NCBI GenBank assembly: GCA_017853555.1
Contig: JAFMJH010000002.1
Coordinates: 62,001 to 126,000 of the forward strand
DNA: 64,000 nt
Reading direction: 5' to 3'
From: Steroidobacteraceae bacterium
GTDB taxonomy: Bacteria; Pseudomonadota; Gammaproteobacteria; Steroidobacterales; Steroidobacteraceae
The position numbers were made by a program, and so were the translations under genes. This document shows, in pieces, positions 23,365 to 29,672 of this stretch (positions within the stretch are counted from its first letter, which is position 1; every line of letters begins with the position of its first letter). A model generated the notes under the pieces. That model saw only the letters and a list, made by a program, of their open reading frames with translations, had not been told where the DNA came from and made no database searches.

Positions 23365-23991
23365 ATGGAGTTTACACTACTCGCCCTTTTGCCGGCTTCA
23401 GGTGGCTGCGTGTCCCGTTTTCCTCAAGCCGACTTCATGTTGAGTGTTGCCGCCCCCGCACAGTTCCCCGCCGACGAGGGCAGCGAGGTCGCCTTCGCCG
23501 GTCGCTCGAACGCGGGCAAGTCGAGTGCGATCAATGCCATCGCCGGCCGCAAGGCGCTCGCGCGGACGAGCAAAACGCCAGGGCGTACGCAGTTGCTCAA
23601 CTATTTCGACTTGGGCGAGCGGAGGCGGATCGTCGATCTGCCCGGCTACGGCTACGCCGAGGTGAATCCGCTCGAGCGGGCGAAGTGGGCGCCGTTGATC
23701 GACGCCTTGCGTGCGCGGGCGAGTTTGCGCGGCCTGTGCCTGATCGTGGATTCGCGCCGCGGTTTGCGCGACGAGGATTTCGGCCTCATCGATTGGGCGG
23801 ACCCGGGTCTGCGCACGGTGCACGTCCTGCTCGCCAAGGCGGACAAACTCAACCAGGCCGAGCGAGCGGCGGCGCTCGCGGCGGCGCGTCAGGCGCTCGG
23901 CCAACGCGCCAGCGTGCAGATGTTCTCGGCCCACGGCGGCCTCGGGGTGCGCGAGGCGCAGGATCGATTGCTGCAGCTCTGGGCGGCATGA
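23365..23991 (+). CDS. engB: Ribosome biogenesis GTP-binding protein EngB/YsxC/YihA
   Basis: GRSNAGKSSAINAIAGRKALARTSKTPGRTQLLNYF, DLPGYGYAEV, LLAKADKL. Confidence 0.97.
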   Translation: MEFTLLALLPASGGCVSRFPQADFMLSVAAPAQFPADEGSEVAFAGRSNAGKSSAINAIAGRKALARTSKTPGRTQLLNYFDLGERRRIVDLPGYGYAEVNPLERAKWAPLIDALRARASLRGLCLIVDSRRGLRDEDFGLIDWADPGLRTVHVLLAKADKLNQAERAAALAAARQALGQRASVQMFSAHGGLGVREAQDRLLQLWAA

Positions 23992-24000
23992 CGAGGCGAT

Positions 24001-24038
24001 AAAAAAAGCCCCGACGACCGTTTCCGGCCGGTCGGGGC
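24001..24038 (-). terminator. Intrinsic terminator oriented on the minus strand
   Basis: GCCCCGACCGGCCG-GAAA-CGGTCGTCGGGGC then TTTTTTT on minus; no minus-strand CDS lies directly upstream. Confidence 0.9.
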
Positions 24039-24112
24039 ACACGAACCCGGCACAGGTCTCTTGCGGCCGGGGCCCGCTCAGGGAGGGGAGGAGCGGGGAA
24101 CGCGGGGCGTTC
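24001..24112 (-). ncRNA. Putative sigmaE-type-promoter sRNA at the polA-engB (Spot42/ErsA) synteny position
   Basis: Minus strand: GAACCA-N16-TCTGA promoter, 5' hairpin GAACGC-CCC-GCGTTC at predicted +1, hairpin CCCGCTC-CTCCCCTCCCT-GAGCGGG, hairpin CCCGGC..GCCGGG, GAAA-loop terminator with 7 T. Confidence 0.75.
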
Positions 24113-24118
24113 GCTCAA

Positions 24119-24145
24119 TCAGACCGGGGCGCGCGTCATTGGTTC
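24119..24145 (-). promoter_or_regulatory. Candidate sigmaE/AlgU-type promoter
   Basis: Minus strand GGAACCA (-35), 16-bp spacer after GAACCA, TCTGA (-10), versus consensus GAACTT-N16/17-TCTGA. Confidence 0.65.
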
Positions 24146-24178
24146 CGTGGTCGCGCAACGGTTTCGTCACCGCGCAAC
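24141..24178. repeat. Two exactly abutting 19-bp direct repeats (15/19 identical)
   Basis: ggttccgtggtcgcgcaac | ggtttcgtcaccgcgcaac. Confidence 0.8.
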
Positions 24179-24402
24179 GCAGCAGCGGTGACGCCGTACG
24201 ACGACCGAAGATTGTTGCGATTATGCAACATCCGGGACGCGACCGAGGCGCCGACTCGGGTATATTCCTGCAAGTTATGCCGGCTTCACCGCAATCTATG
24301 CCAGCGTGCGCGGGTACTGTCATCCTGTGTAGTACGCCGGCAACGATTCCGATTCGAGCGTAGCCGAAGTGTTCAAACTGCGATTTCAAAAGGGGGACAA
24401 CG

Positions 24403-26820
24403 ATGAAGTCACGTAACGGATTGGAGCAGGGACGCGTGCGACGAGCCGTCGCCGTGTCGTTGCTGATGGCGCCGGGCCTGTTGGCCGTCGCGCCTGCATA
24501 CGCACAAGAAAAAGCGGCTGCGATCGAACTCGAAGAAGTCGTGGTCACGGCCCGCAAGGCCGAAGAAAAGCTCACCGAAGTGCCGCTGTCGATCGCTGCA
24601 TACAGCGCCGACGAGCTCGCCAAGCGCAACACCACGAGTCTCTACGACATCGCGCAGTACACCGCGGGTTTCTCGTTCGAGAACTACTCGGGTGGCACGG
24701 CGCCGGCGCCGTTGATGCGCGGTCTGACGCAGAACGCGCTCACCGATCGCAACCAGAACGTCGGTTCGTTCGTCGACGGCGTGCACGTGCAGCAGCAGGG
24801 CAACATCGATTTCAGCTTGCTCGATCTCGAGCGCATCGAAATCGTCAAAGGCCCGCAGAATGCGCAATACGGCCGCAGTTCGTTCGCCGGTGCGATCAAC
24901 TGGGTGCCGAAGAAACCCTCGCTCGACAAGGTCGACGGCTCGCTGCGCATGACGCTCGGCACCGACGAACGTCGTGACCTCGCCGTGTCGGTCAGCTTGC
25001 CGATCATCAAAGATATGCTCGCGATCCGCGTCGGTGGCACGAACACCGAATTCGACGGCACCTGGAAGAACAACTATCCGGGTTCGACGAAAGCGGTCAA
25101 GACCACCGTGTTCGGCAAGAAATTCGATGGCACCGACGGCAATCTCGGCGGCTACAACAACCGCTCGCGGCAGGTGTCGGCACGCTTTCGTCCGATCGAA
25201 CAATTGACGGTCGATGCGATGTACTACCGCTCGGAGAACATCTACGAAGCCGGTGCGAGCTACAACCTGCAGCCCCGCGCGGCTACCGTGGTGCCGGCGC
25301 TCGGTTACTTCAACCCCCTCAATTGCAGCCCGCGTCTCGTGACCAACACGGCGCAGCTGCTGTGCGGCGAGATGAAGATCACGCCGTCGCAAATCGTCGC
25401 CGATCCGCGCGCCAGTGGTAACCACACGCACTCGGACCTGACGGTCGGTCGCGTCGAATACAAAATCAGCGACTCTTTGACGGCGACCTATGTCTACGGT
25501 CGCGGTTCGTACGATGCGGCCAACTACGGTGCCTCGTTCAACCAGCCCGAAGTGCTCGTCAACGGTGACCGCACCGCCGCGATTCCGGGTGGTTTGATCT
25601 TCGTCGCCAACCCGCTGGGTGATCAGAACTCGCGCTCCAACGAGTTCCGTCTCGACGGCAAGGTCGGTGACATCGGCTGGCGCGTCGGTTACTACAAGAG
25701 CAACGTCACCGACATCGGTGCGCTCGGCTTGTACACCTTCCGTCTGCCGCTCAGCGTCGACCCGACGGGTCAGTCGATTCCGTTCTCGCTCGCCGATGCG
25801 AACTTCCAATCGCGCTTCACGGACGCGACCAAGGCGACCTTCGCCTCGATCACGATTCCGTTCAACAGCTTCACGCTCGAAGCGGAAGGTCGCTCGGCCA
25901 AAGAAAACCGCAGGCAGCAACCGCAGTTGCCGACGGCTTTCGTGCCGGCTCCGAAGAACTTCAGCGAATTCACGCCGCGCGTGAACCTGAAGTGGCAGCC
26001 GCAAGCGGGCTGGATGTTCTACGGCTCGATCGCCAAGGGCAGCAAGGCCGGCGGCTTCAACGGCGTCACCGCGGACGTGGCGACCTTCGATCCGGAAAAG
26101 AACACCACCTATGAAATCGGCGGCAAGCAGTCGTTGATGAACGGTACGCTGCAGTTGAACTATGCGGCGTTCTTCATCGACTGGAAGAAGTTGCAGTTGT
26201 CGGTGCCTGACACGATCCCGTCGAAGCCGGGCATCCAGGACGCCAACTACATCGGCAACGTTTCGGGCGCCGAGTCGAAGGGCGTCGAGCTCGAGGCGAT
26301 CTACCTCGCGGCCGACAACCTGAAGCTCAACTTCGCCGGTTCGTACGTGCAGTCGACCTTCAACAGCGACGTCGTCGACACGACTTTCGGCCGTCTCTGC
26401 GAAACCGGTGGCACGGCGGCATGCACCTTCCTGCCGCGTTCGACGCTGTATCCGCTCGGTGGCTCGCCCATCGGTGGCAACGATCTGCCGCGCACGCCGC
26501 GCAGCAAGTTCTCGGCCGGCGCCGAGTACCTGATGCCGCTGTCGGCGGGCATCTCGCTCACCTTGCGTGGTGACCTCAACTACCAGAGCAAGTACTACGT
26601 CGAGAACCTCAACCTCGCGTACATCCCGAACCGTACGCTGGTGAACCTCGATGCGACCTTCTCGAGCGAAGATCGCAAGTGGAGCGCGAGCTTGTGGGCC
26701 AAGAACGCCACCGACAAGACCTACGTGTCGAGCGCGTTCGCGGTTTCGGTCATCAACCAGTACATCCCGGCGATCGCCGACGGACGTACGATGGGTATGA
26801 CGCTGCGTTACAGCTTCTGA
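24403..26820 (+). CDS. TonB-dependent receptor
   Basis: Signal peptide, LEEVVVTARKAEEKLTEVPLSIAAYSADEL, plug GPQNAQYGRSSFAGAINWVPK, C-terminal MGMTLRYSF. Confidence 0.95.
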   Translation: MKSRNGLEQGRVRRAVAVSLLMAPGLLAVAPAYAQEKAAAIELEEVVVTARKAEEKLTEVPLSIAAYSADELAKRNTTSLYDIAQYTAGFSFENYSGGTAPAPLMRGLTQNALTDRNQNVGSFVDGVHVQQQGNIDFSLLDLERIEIVKGPQNAQYGRSSFAGAINWVPKKPSLDKVDGSLRMTLGTDERRDLAVSVSLPIIKDMLAIRVGGTNTEFDGTWKNNYPGSTKAVKTTVFGKKFDGTDGNLGGYNNRSRQVSARFRPIEQLTVDAMYYRSENIYEAGASYNLQPRAATVVPALGYFNPLNCSPRLVTNTAQLLCGEMKITPSQIVADPRASGNHTHSDLTVGRVEYKISDSLTATYVYGRGSYDAANYGASFNQPEVLVNGDRTAAIPGGLIFVANPLGDQNSRSNEFRLDGKVGDIGWRVGYYKSNVTDIGALGLYTFRLPLSVDPTGQSIPFSLADANFQSRFTDATKATFASITIPFNSFTLEAEGRSAKENRRQQPQLPTAFVPAPKNFSEFTPRVNLKWQPQAGWMFYGSIAKGSKAGGFNGVTADVATFDPEKNTTYEIGGKQSLMNGTLQLNYAAFFIDWKKLQLSVPDTIPSKPGIQDANYIGNVSGAESKGVELEAIYLAADNLKLNFAGSYVQSTFNSDVVDTTFGRLCETGGTAACTFLPRSTLYPLGGSPIGGNDLPRTPRSKFSAGAEYLMPLSAGISLTLRGDLNYQSKYYVENLNLAYIPNRTLVNLDATFSSEDRKWSASLWAKNATDKTYVSSAFAVSVINQYIPAIADGRTMGMTLRYSF

Positions 26821-26848: not shown

Positions 26849-29611
26849 CTAGTGCGCCTCGTCCCAATTCGAGCCGGTGCCCACATCCACTTTGAGCGGC
26901 ACCGATAGCGCGCCTTCTCCGGCCGCCACCATTTTCTTCCGCACCGCTTCGGTCACGCGCTGCACGGCCGTGTCGCGCACTTCGAGCACGAGCTCGTCGT
27001 GTACCTGCATGATCAGGCGCGCCTCGCCGCCGCCATGTACGCGGCACCAATCGTCGACCGAGATCATCGCGCGCTTGATGAGATCCGCTGCCGTACCTTG
27101 CATGGGCGCATTGATGGCGCTGCGCTCGGCGTATTGTTGCAGCGCGCGATTGCGCGAGCGGATCTCCGGCAGATAGAGCCGACGGCCGAATACGGTTTCG
27201 ACGTAACCCGTTTCGCGCGCCCGCTCGCGGGTGCGATCCATGTACGCCTTCACGCCCGGATAGCGCGCGAAATACAACTCGACGTAGCGCTGTGCGGCGC
27301 CGCGTTCGATGCCGAGCTGGCGCGCGAGTCCGAACGCGGACATACCGTAAATGAGACCGAAGTTGATGGCTTTGGCCGAACGCCTTTGCTCTGCGGTGAC
27401 GTCGTCGAGGGCGACGTCGAACACCTCGGCCGCGGTCGCCTGGTGCACGTCGCGATCCGCCGCGAACGCGTTCTGCAGACCTGCGTCGCCCGACAAGTGC
27501 GCCATGATGCGCAATTCGATTTGCGAGTAGTCCGCCGCGAGCAGCACATGGCCCGCCGGTGCGATGAACGCCTGTCGAATGCGTCGACCTTCGGGCGTGC
27601 GAATCGGGATGTTCTGCAGATTCGGGTCGCTCGAGGAGAGGCGCCCGGTTTGCGCCACGGCCTGGTGGTACGAGGTATGCACGCGGCCCGTGCGCTCGTT
27701 CACCTGTTCGGGAAGTTTGTCGGTGTAGGTGCTGCGCAATTTGGCGATGCTGCGATATTCGAGAATCAGTCGCGGCAATGCGTGTTCTTCGGCCAGCTCT
27801 TCCAATACGTCTTCGGCGGTGGAGGGTTGCCCCGTCGGGGTTTTGCGCAACACGGGAATCTGCATTTTTTCGTACAAGATCGCCTGCAACTGTTTGGGCG
27901 AATCGAGATTGAACGGCCCGCCGGCCGCCTCGTGCGCCGCAGCCTGCAACTCGAGCGCGCGTCGCGCGAGCTCTCCGCTCTGGGTGCGCAGCATGGCGCG
28001 ATCGACCAGCACGCCGCGGCGCTCCATGCCGATCAGCACTTTGACCAGCGGCTGCTCGAATTCCTCGTACAACCGCTTCAAGAGCGGCTCGTGATCGATC
28101 GCGGGCCACAGCGTGCGATGCAAGCGCAGCGTGACGTCGGCATCTTCGGCGGCGTATTCGCCCGCGGTCTCGACCGAAACCTGGCTGAACGGGATCTGTT
28201 TGGCGCCTTTGCCGGCGACGTCTTCGTAATGGATGGTCGCAAGACCGAGATAGCGCTCGGCGGCCGAGTCCATGTCGTGGCGCGTGGCGACGCTGTTCCA
28301 CACGTAGCTCTCGAGCATGCTGTCGAAACGCAAGCCGGCGAGCGCGATGCCGTGATTGGCGAGTACGTGCGCATCGTATTTGAGGTTGTGCCCGATTTTC
28401 CCCGGTGACTCGGCTTCGAGCAGCGGCTTCAAAAGTTTGAGCACCGTGTCGCGATCGAGCTGATCGGGCGCACCCGGATAGTCGTGACGCAAGGGCACGT
28501 AGGCCGCGCTGCCGGGCTCCACCGCGAACGACACGCCGACGATCTCCGCCTGCATGTAATCGAGACTGGTGGTTTCGGTATCGAAGGCGAACGCATCCGC
28601 GGCGCGCAGCGTTTCGAGCCAGCGATCGAGCGCGGAGCGCGTGAGCACGACTTCATACTCGCGGGCGGCTTCGGCGACGGCCCGCGGAATCTCGAGCACG
28701 GCATTGCCGGAAGGGGCGCTGTCCGCACCGCCGCTCGGCGGCGTCTCGGGCGCATCAGCGCCGAGTTGCCGCAGGAGATTGCGAAATCCGAGTCGCGTGT
28801 ACAAGTCGCGTAAGGCTGCTTCGTCGGCCGGTCTGCGACGCAGATCTGCCGCCTCCGGCGGCAGATCGAGATCGCAACGGATGGTTGCCAAACGCCGCGA
28901 CAACTCGAGCGTCTCGAGTCCGGCGCGCAGGTTCTCGCCGACTTTGCCGGTGAGTGCTTCGCGGTGTTCGATCAGTGCATCGAGCGTGCGGTACTCGGCG
29001 AGCCACTTCGCCGCGGTCTTCGGGCCCACTTTGTCGATGCCCGGAATGTTGTCCGATGCATCGCCGATCAGCGCCAGATAGTCGATGATCTGTTCCGGCC
29101 ACACGTCGAATTTGTTTTTGACGCCATCGCGATCGTAACGCGAGTCGGTCATGGTGTTGACCAGGGTCACGTACGGTCCGACGAGTTGCGCCATGTCTTT
29201 GTCGCCGGTCGAGATCAGCACCTTGCGACCGGCGTCGGCGCCGCGGCGCGCGAGCGTGCCGATCACGTCGTCCGCTTCGACGCCCGCAATGCGCAGCAAG
29301 GGCAGACCGAGCGCGCGCACGGCCTCGAGCAGCGGTTCGATCTGCGCCCGCAGATCATCGGGCATGGGCGGGCGGTGTGATTTGTATTCGGCGAACAGTT
29401 CGTCGCGAAAGGTTTTGCCGGGGGCATCGAACACCACGGCGAGTTGTGCGTCGGGTTGTTCGCGCAGCAGTTTTTGCAGCATGTTCACCACGCCGAGCAC
29501 GGCACCGGTCGGTTCGCCGCGGGCATTGGTGAGCGGAGGCAGCGCGTGAAAGGCGCGATAGAGGTAGGAAGATCCGTCGACGAGGACGAGATCGGCAGCG
29601 TGTGCGGTCAT
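26849..29611 (-). CDS. polA: DNA polymerase I
   Basis: 5' nuclease LVDGSSYLYRAFHALPPL; pol motifs DYSQIELRIMAHLSGD, RRSAKAINFGLIYGMSAFGLA, QVHDELVLEV. Confidence 0.98.
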   Translation of the reverse strand: MTAHAADLVLVDGSSYLYRAFHALPPLTNARGEPTGAVLGVVNMLQKLLREQPDAQLAVVFDAPGKTFRDELFAEYKSHRPPMPDDLRAQIEPLLEAVRALGLPLLRIAGVEADDVIGTLARRGADAGRKVLISTGDKDMAQLVGPYVTLVNTMTDSRYDRDGVKNKFDVWPEQIIDYLALIGDASDNIPGIDKVGPKTAAKWLAEYRTLDALIEHREALTGKVGENLRAGLETLELSRRLATIRCDLDLPPEAADLRRRPADEAALRDLYTRLGFRNLLRQLGADAPETPPSGGADSAPSGNAVLEIPRAVAEAAREYEVVLTRSALDRWLETLRAADAFAFDTETTSLDYMQAEIVGVSFAVEPGSAAYVPLRHDYPGAPDQLDRDTVLKLLKPLLEAESPGKIGHNLKYDAHVLANHGIALAGLRFDSMLESYVWNSVATRHDMDSAAERYLGLATIHYEDVAGKGAKQIPFSQVSVETAGEYAAEDADVTLRLHRTLWPAIDHEPLLKRLYEEFEQPLVKVLIGMERRGVLVDRAMLRTQSGELARRALELQAAAHEAAGGPFNLDSPKQLQAILYEKMQIPVLRKTPTGQPSTAEDVLEELAEEHALPRLILEYRSIAKLRSTYTDKLPEQVNERTGRVHTSYHQAVAQTGRLSSSDPNLQNIPIRTPEGRRIRQAFIAPAGHVLLAADYSQIELRIMAHLSGDAGLQNAFAADRDVHQATAAEVFDVALDDVTAEQRRSAKAINFGLIYGMSAFGLARQLGIERGAAQRYVELYFARYPGVKAYMDRTRERARETGYVETVFGRRLYLPEIRSRNRALQQYAERSAINAPMQGTAADLIKRAMISVDDWCRVHGGGEARLIMQVHDELVLEVRDTAVQRVTEAVRKKMVAAGEGALSVPLKVDVGTGSNWDEAH

Positions 29612-29672
29612 GCGACCGATCTTAACCGGTCGCAAGTCGGCATCGGGTGGCGTGAGGTACGCCACCCGATGC
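29611..29672 (-). promoter_or_regulatory. Tandem perfect hairpins in the polA 5' region
   Basis: GCATCGGGTGGCGT-N5-ACGCCACCCGATGC (29640-29672) and TGCGACCG-N8-CGGTCGCA (29611-29634), the latter reaching the polA start codon. Confidence 0.75.

Follow-up and report, generated by a model that had tools for sequence, protein, structure and literature searches.

ErsA of Pseudomonas (Rfam RF01719, Pseudomon-1) is encoded at the polA-engB locus, has a sigma22/AlgU (RpoE-type) promoter and carries a C-rich terminator loop, features that it shares with the family of small RNAs (sRNAs) described here. It is sigma22-dependent and, together with Hfq, pairs to the algC ribosome-binding site and represses algC (PMC6321483). 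sX13 of Xanthomonas (RF02232) resembles the same family in lying downstream of polA on the same strand and in having several C-rich loops, which repress mRNAs with G-rich motifs near their start sites; repression is lost in loop mutants (PMC3771888). It differs from the RNA analyzed here in being reported as Hfq-independent in Xanthomonas and in having a hypothetical gene, not engB, as its flank (PMC3771888). According to the 2013 study of sX13, this RNA occurs only in Xanthomonadaceae; the authors raised the question of whether sRNAs are also encoded at the polA loci of other bacteria (PMC3771888). A third RNA, anti-hemB (RF02837; also Burkholderia RNA 7 or ncS04), is curated in Rfam solely as a Burkholderia RNA. 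It is a 105-nt transcript with reported Hfq binding, and its level was unchanged in the B. cenocepacia conditions tested, none of which was a specific envelope stress (PMC5688073). In Rfam and in the papers searched, ErsA, sX13, and anti-hemB/ncS04 are treated as lineage-restricted and unrelated.

We analyzed a 64,000-nt stretch of DNA from a Steroidobacteraceae bacterium (the window), in which the original prediction had placed an sRNA of ~110 nt with a sigmaE-type promoter at the polA-engB position. The features of the locus are as follows.

23365..23991 (start approximate), plus strand: engB/yihA GTPase gene, convergent neighbor, from the window gene map and relatives
24001..24112, minus strand: predicted sRNA gene (~112 nt) of the polA-engB locus family, with the 5′ end placed by means of the promoter
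24141..24146, minus strand: sigmaE-type −35 element GGAACC, read from the sequence, with GAAC kept in nearly all relatives
24119..24124, minus strand: sigmaE-type −10 element GTCTGA, with a spacing of 16 nt to the −35 element, from sequence and conservation
24098..24112, minus strand: SL1 hairpin GAACGC-CCC-GCGTTC, from predicted fold and covariation
24073..24097, minus strand: SL2 hairpin CCCGCTC/CTCCCCTCCCT/GAGCGGG, from predicted fold and covariation
24080..24090, minus strand: 11-nt C-rich SL2 loop CTCCCCTCCCT, candidate pairing seed of the anti-Shine-Dalgarno type
24046..24071, minus strand: SL3 hairpin CCCGGC...GCCGGG, from predicted fold and covariation
24008..24038 (hairpin) and 24001..24007 (seven T), minus strand: intrinsic terminator GCCCCGAC...GAAA...GTCGGGGC, from sequence, fold, and covariation
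24403..26820, plus strand: TonB-dependent receptor gene, divergent from the sRNA and separating it from polA, from the gene map
26849..29665, minus strand: polA, upstream on the same strand as the sRNA, from the gene map and relatives

Read on the minus strand, the promoter, the three hairpins, and the terminator with its seven T were base for base as originally named. The predicted RNA fold consists of these four hairpins, at −59.2 kcal/mol (z = −3.3), which was equalled by 0 of 200 shuffles. Scans of the window for generic sigma70 promoters and terminators gave no useful information and missed the sRNA terminator. A 185-aa antisense open frame (24078-24635, minus strand) runs over the 5′ half of the sRNA and the start of the TonB-receptor gene, with no sign of a gene.

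By DNA similarity, 27 of 60 relatives carry the element. Across 22 relatives, four covarying hairpins surround a near-invariant C-rich loop; 94.8% of the cells in this alignment were paired, 47 cells carried double changes compared to 15.6 in shuffles, and controls with a slid structure fell far below the true pairing. Compensatory changes were present in SL1 (an A-U to G-C change in 7 of the 22), SL2, and SL3 and were strongest in the terminator. A covariance model of homologous polA-engB intervals had been proposed as a check; R1, built solely from own-family loci, widened detection to 49 of the 60 relatives and also detected loci across the class (E-values of R1, and of R2 below, are rough because of a shortened calibration). 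The C-rich loop, promoter, and terminator, on whose conservation in relatives the prediction depended, were found to be conserved. In one same-genus copy (L024, from genome G014) SL3 is missing and SL1, SL2, the promoter, and the terminator are kept, which suggests that SL3 may be dispensable.

At the loci of relatives, engB directly flanks the sRNA, as does polA in most of them with no gene between. Because of this direct flanking, the TonB-receptor gene is, by comparison of loci, an insertion that only this one of the compared genomes has, in agreement with the converging polA and engB genes and inserted receptor gene that had been described. In Steroidobacteraceae relatives (L003-L027), an (A/C)TGATT motif combined with A/T-rich sequence is conserved about 33-45 nt ahead of the −35 element and may be an UP element or the site of an activator. 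It was not seen in the window, where the TonB-receptor insertion changed the DNA upstream of the promoter.

At curated cut-offs, Rfam returned nothing in the window except one tRNA. When an E-value threshold was applied, the interval matched anti-hemB (RF02837) with 44.0 bits (E = 3.6e-9), the sole strong match, over model positions 1-81 of 81 and including the CCUCCCU-loop hairpin and the terminator. The SL2 stem, CCUCCCU loop, SL3, and terminator of the two RNAs align; the Rfam model differs from the window RNA in being without SL1. We do not file the window RNA as an Rfam anti-hemB member because its score is under the gathering cut-off of 49.5 bits, and we conclude that the predicted RNA is homologous to anti-hemB, below that cut-off. 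The original prediction had missed this match and had pointed to the Spot_42, ErsA, and sX13 models, none of which matched the interval. For ErsA (RF01719) the interval gave nothing at E ≤ 10 and the organism's own genome nothing at E ≤ 0.05, and for sX13 (RF02232) neither of them gave a match.

Over 369 genomes of the class, RF02837 gave matches at E ≤ 0.001 in 168, and in 20 these were above the cut-off. R1 recovered 30 of the 30 top RF02837 loci and nearly all of the wider locus set, and vice versa; therefore, both models identify one another's loci. R2, a covariance model from an expanded class-wide alignment with the window among its training rows and no ErsA included, matched 166 of the 369 genomes, so that RF02837 and R2 together covered 196, and in 173 genomes neither model detected a copy. 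The window scored 69.3 bits with R2, in whose training set it sits. In the class alignment of 113 distinct sequences, every one of the 28 pairs showed changes on both sides, and double-change cells numbered 594 compared to 155 in shuffles, a count that leans in favor as the alignment was fitted to the structure model.

Gene order was examined at 90 RF02837 loci. Seventy-six are beside polA and/or engB, 71 as polA > sRNA > < engB, convergent to engB like the window RNA; 14 are not beside polA or engB within the stretch examined, and five matches are in reverse orientation. The motif GAAC[TC]-N15-19-GTC[TA] precedes 56 of the 90 loci compared to about 0.6 (0.56) in shuffles; RF02837 itself starts at SL2 and carries no promoter information. 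The window has the same promoter pattern, the four hairpins, the CUCCCU SL2 loop, the terminator, and the position of the family, with a same-strand polA upstream, a convergent engB downstream, and one gene inserted. The SL2 loop core CUCCCU is unpaired, and in 97 sequences from beyond the own family its columns are 95-100% conserved. Across the class, C makes up 61% of the terminator loops on average; the GNRA terminator of the original prediction is present in the window as a GAAA loop that is specific to its own lineage, and a general role for such a loop was not supported. polA and engB are linked in 6 of 50 genomes without a model match versus 40 of 61 with one, and several genomes without a match still hold sub-threshold copies adjoining engB.

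A DNA-pattern scan of named genomes pointed the same way. Among the 80 loci listed, engB was convergent downstream in 60 and polA upstream in 25, with 0 reversed; the promoter found at 59 of 60 loci is there by construction and is not evidence, because the search pattern contained the promoter. The matches listed include Methylovorus, Methylobacillus, Ectothiorhodospira, Dechloromonas, Sideroxydans, Nitrosospira, Ca. Nitrotoga, Thiomonas, Oxalobacteraceae, Burkholderiales, Acidiferrobacteraceae, Steroidobacteraceae, and others. When 20 class loci were compared with all 4227 Rfam families, 44 matches at E ≤ 0.5 were obtained, nearly all of them to anti-hemB, ErsA, or sX13 at the sRNA position. 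Taken together, these sequence comparisons indicate that predicted sRNA genes occur at polA loci throughout the class, most of them having a sigmaE-type promoter and a C-rich loop that hardly varies. For the window, conservation, covariation, synteny, and reciprocal covariance-model matches bear out the ~110-nt sRNA with a sigmaE-type promoter at this position; on these grounds it is strongly supported that 24146-24001 (minus strand) holds a real, unannotated, stand-alone sRNA gene with a putative envelope-stress-type promoter.

The link to ErsA was approached from both sides. RF01719 finds bona fide ErsA beside polA in Pseudomonadaceae (L212; G221 at 121.3 bits), and R2 marks the L212 ErsA at the locus with 30 bits, a score that is not significant genome-wide; a reverse search with RF01719 was therefore used. 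Over the class genomes this model gave 36 matches besides one above the cut-off, and 19 of the 36 share position and strand with a match of RF02837 or R2, where about 0.002 would be expected. Sixteen of these 19 loci, when fetched, adjoin polA or engB. We regard the reverse search as decisive for the predicted link, and what had been proposed as an analogy to ErsA becomes a probable homology. ErsA in Pseudomonas differs from the window RNA in that a different segment replaces the SL2 CCUCCCU hairpin. As for sX13, two bona fide genes downstream of polA were each matched by R2 with 30.9 bits, and in genomes other than the two with scores above its cut-off, the four best RF02232 matches are at positions that R2 also marks. 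Anti-hemB, ErsA, sX13, and the window RNA are thus probably one family.

In the mechanism that we propose, an RpoE-type sigma factor would transcribe the sRNA from GGAACC-N16-GTCTGA under envelope stress, and the transcript would end at its own terminator to give an RNA of ~112 nt. The C-rich loop CUCCCCUCCCU, presented on a rigid stem and probably helped by Hfq, would then pair with many mRNAs at G-rich Shine-Dalgarno sequences or start regions, and their translation would be blocked. The organism's own genome encodes both RpoE (281.7 bits) and Hfq (102.9 bits). Our main reading, to which we assign a probability of about 83%, is that this is a stand-alone, class-orthologous sRNA gene that is sigmaE-induced and represses G-rich ribosome-binding sites in trans through its C-rich loop. 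For this organism, we infer transcription, control by sigmaE, binding to Hfq, and the targets. The constancy of ncS04 is not expected of a strongly stress-induced RNA and counts against the sigmaE-induced reading.

That the C-rich loop pairs with ribosome-binding sites is plausible by analogy with the described relatives of this RNA. A loop that hardly varies and sits on a conserved stem would suit a protein site equally well, and it is conceivable, if unlikely, that the RNA is real and uses its loop to bind a protein or to titrate another RNA instead of blocking ribosome-binding sites. The loop gave no match above background with start regions in the window or with that of the own-genome hfq, which would fit such a site; the Shine-Dalgarno sequence of the TonB-receptor gene, AAGGGGGA, is complementary to part of the loop at −10.7 kcal/mol, inside the random range (5th percentile, −11.8). 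What speaks for repression in trans is that the relatives sX13 and ErsA base-pair with G-rich or ribosome-binding-site regions (PMC3771888, PMC6321483) and that it is the loop mutants of sX13 that lose repression (PMC3771888). The loop is also without a CsrA-type GGA motif, which argues against a protein site.

We consider it improbable that the window RNA is a Spot 42 ortholog controlling carbon metabolism. spf in E. coli has the same polA > sRNA > < engB (yihA) position and orientation, and Spot 42 was the best match of R1 and R2 in the 5.5-kb E. coli locus (15.9 and 17.0 bits), but these scores are weak and come mostly from the terminator. The Rfam Spot_42 model (RF00021) matched neither the window nor the 20 class loci, Spot 42 lacks the C-rich SL2 loop, and the window promoter is of the sigmaE type, whereas Spot 42 is CRP-repressed. 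Unlike the window RNA, Spot 42 has no sigmaE promoter, and no significant similarity of sequence or structure connects the two. Sequence homology to Spot 42, given weak R1 and R2 scores resting on the terminator, was rejected as unproven; the placement of the sRNA at the ErsA/Spot 42 position held for the locus shared with both and failed for sequence homology to Spot 42, with no significant match.

It is very improbable that the element is mainly a terminator or antisense element for the end of engB, or the end of polA read-through, with its hairpins serving termination, since the strong terminator hairpin and the 3′ end 10 nt from the engB stop, which would suit such a role, are set against a T run that serves the minus strand only, where no gene except the sRNA lies within 2.7 kb upstream, against conservation of SL1-SL3, the loop, and the sigmaE-like promoter far beyond the needs of termination, and against the persistence of the gene where polA and engB have separated and the existence of tandem duplicates.

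Returning to an sRNA that represses in trans, we think it likely that the class ancestor (betaproteobacteria included) had one sigmaE-driven, anti-Shine-Dalgarno sRNA at polA-engB, from which ErsA, sX13, and anti-hemB/ncS04 descend, with Spot 42 maybe a re-wired descendant. In the open-licence literature, no paper was found that names two of Pseudomon-1, sX13, anti-hemB, and ErsA together. The unification of anti-hemB, ErsA, and sX13 is apparently unreported, as judged from open-licence papers, with subscription literature outside the search. If the three Rfam families belong to a single one, findings made with ErsA, sX13, and ncS04 could be carried over to hundreds of unannotated genomes, it could be tested whether one ancestral envelope-stress RNA arm was re-targeted in each lineage, and the sRNA gene would be a core noncoding arm of the response to envelope stress throughout the class.

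The alphaproteobacterial ar14 and ar7 sRNAs have C-rich loops of the anti-Shine-Dalgarno type as this family does, with ar7 located at polA (PMC3771888); they differ from the window RNA in belonging to another class and gave no match to the window. The ar14 model (RF02344) weakly matches two class loci, L031 and L364, at the sRNA position, hinting that the alphaproteobacterial C-rich sRNAs may be similar by convergence or descent. Two to four tandem sRNA copies per locus are present in several families (L120/L364 at G229:C33:13149-13903, L129, L124, L039, and L052, and further L125, L103, L109, L033, and L038), an arrangement reminiscent of sibling sRNAs. Within the L364 tandem array, different copies are best matched by different Rfam models, namely, sX13, anti-hemB, and ErsA.
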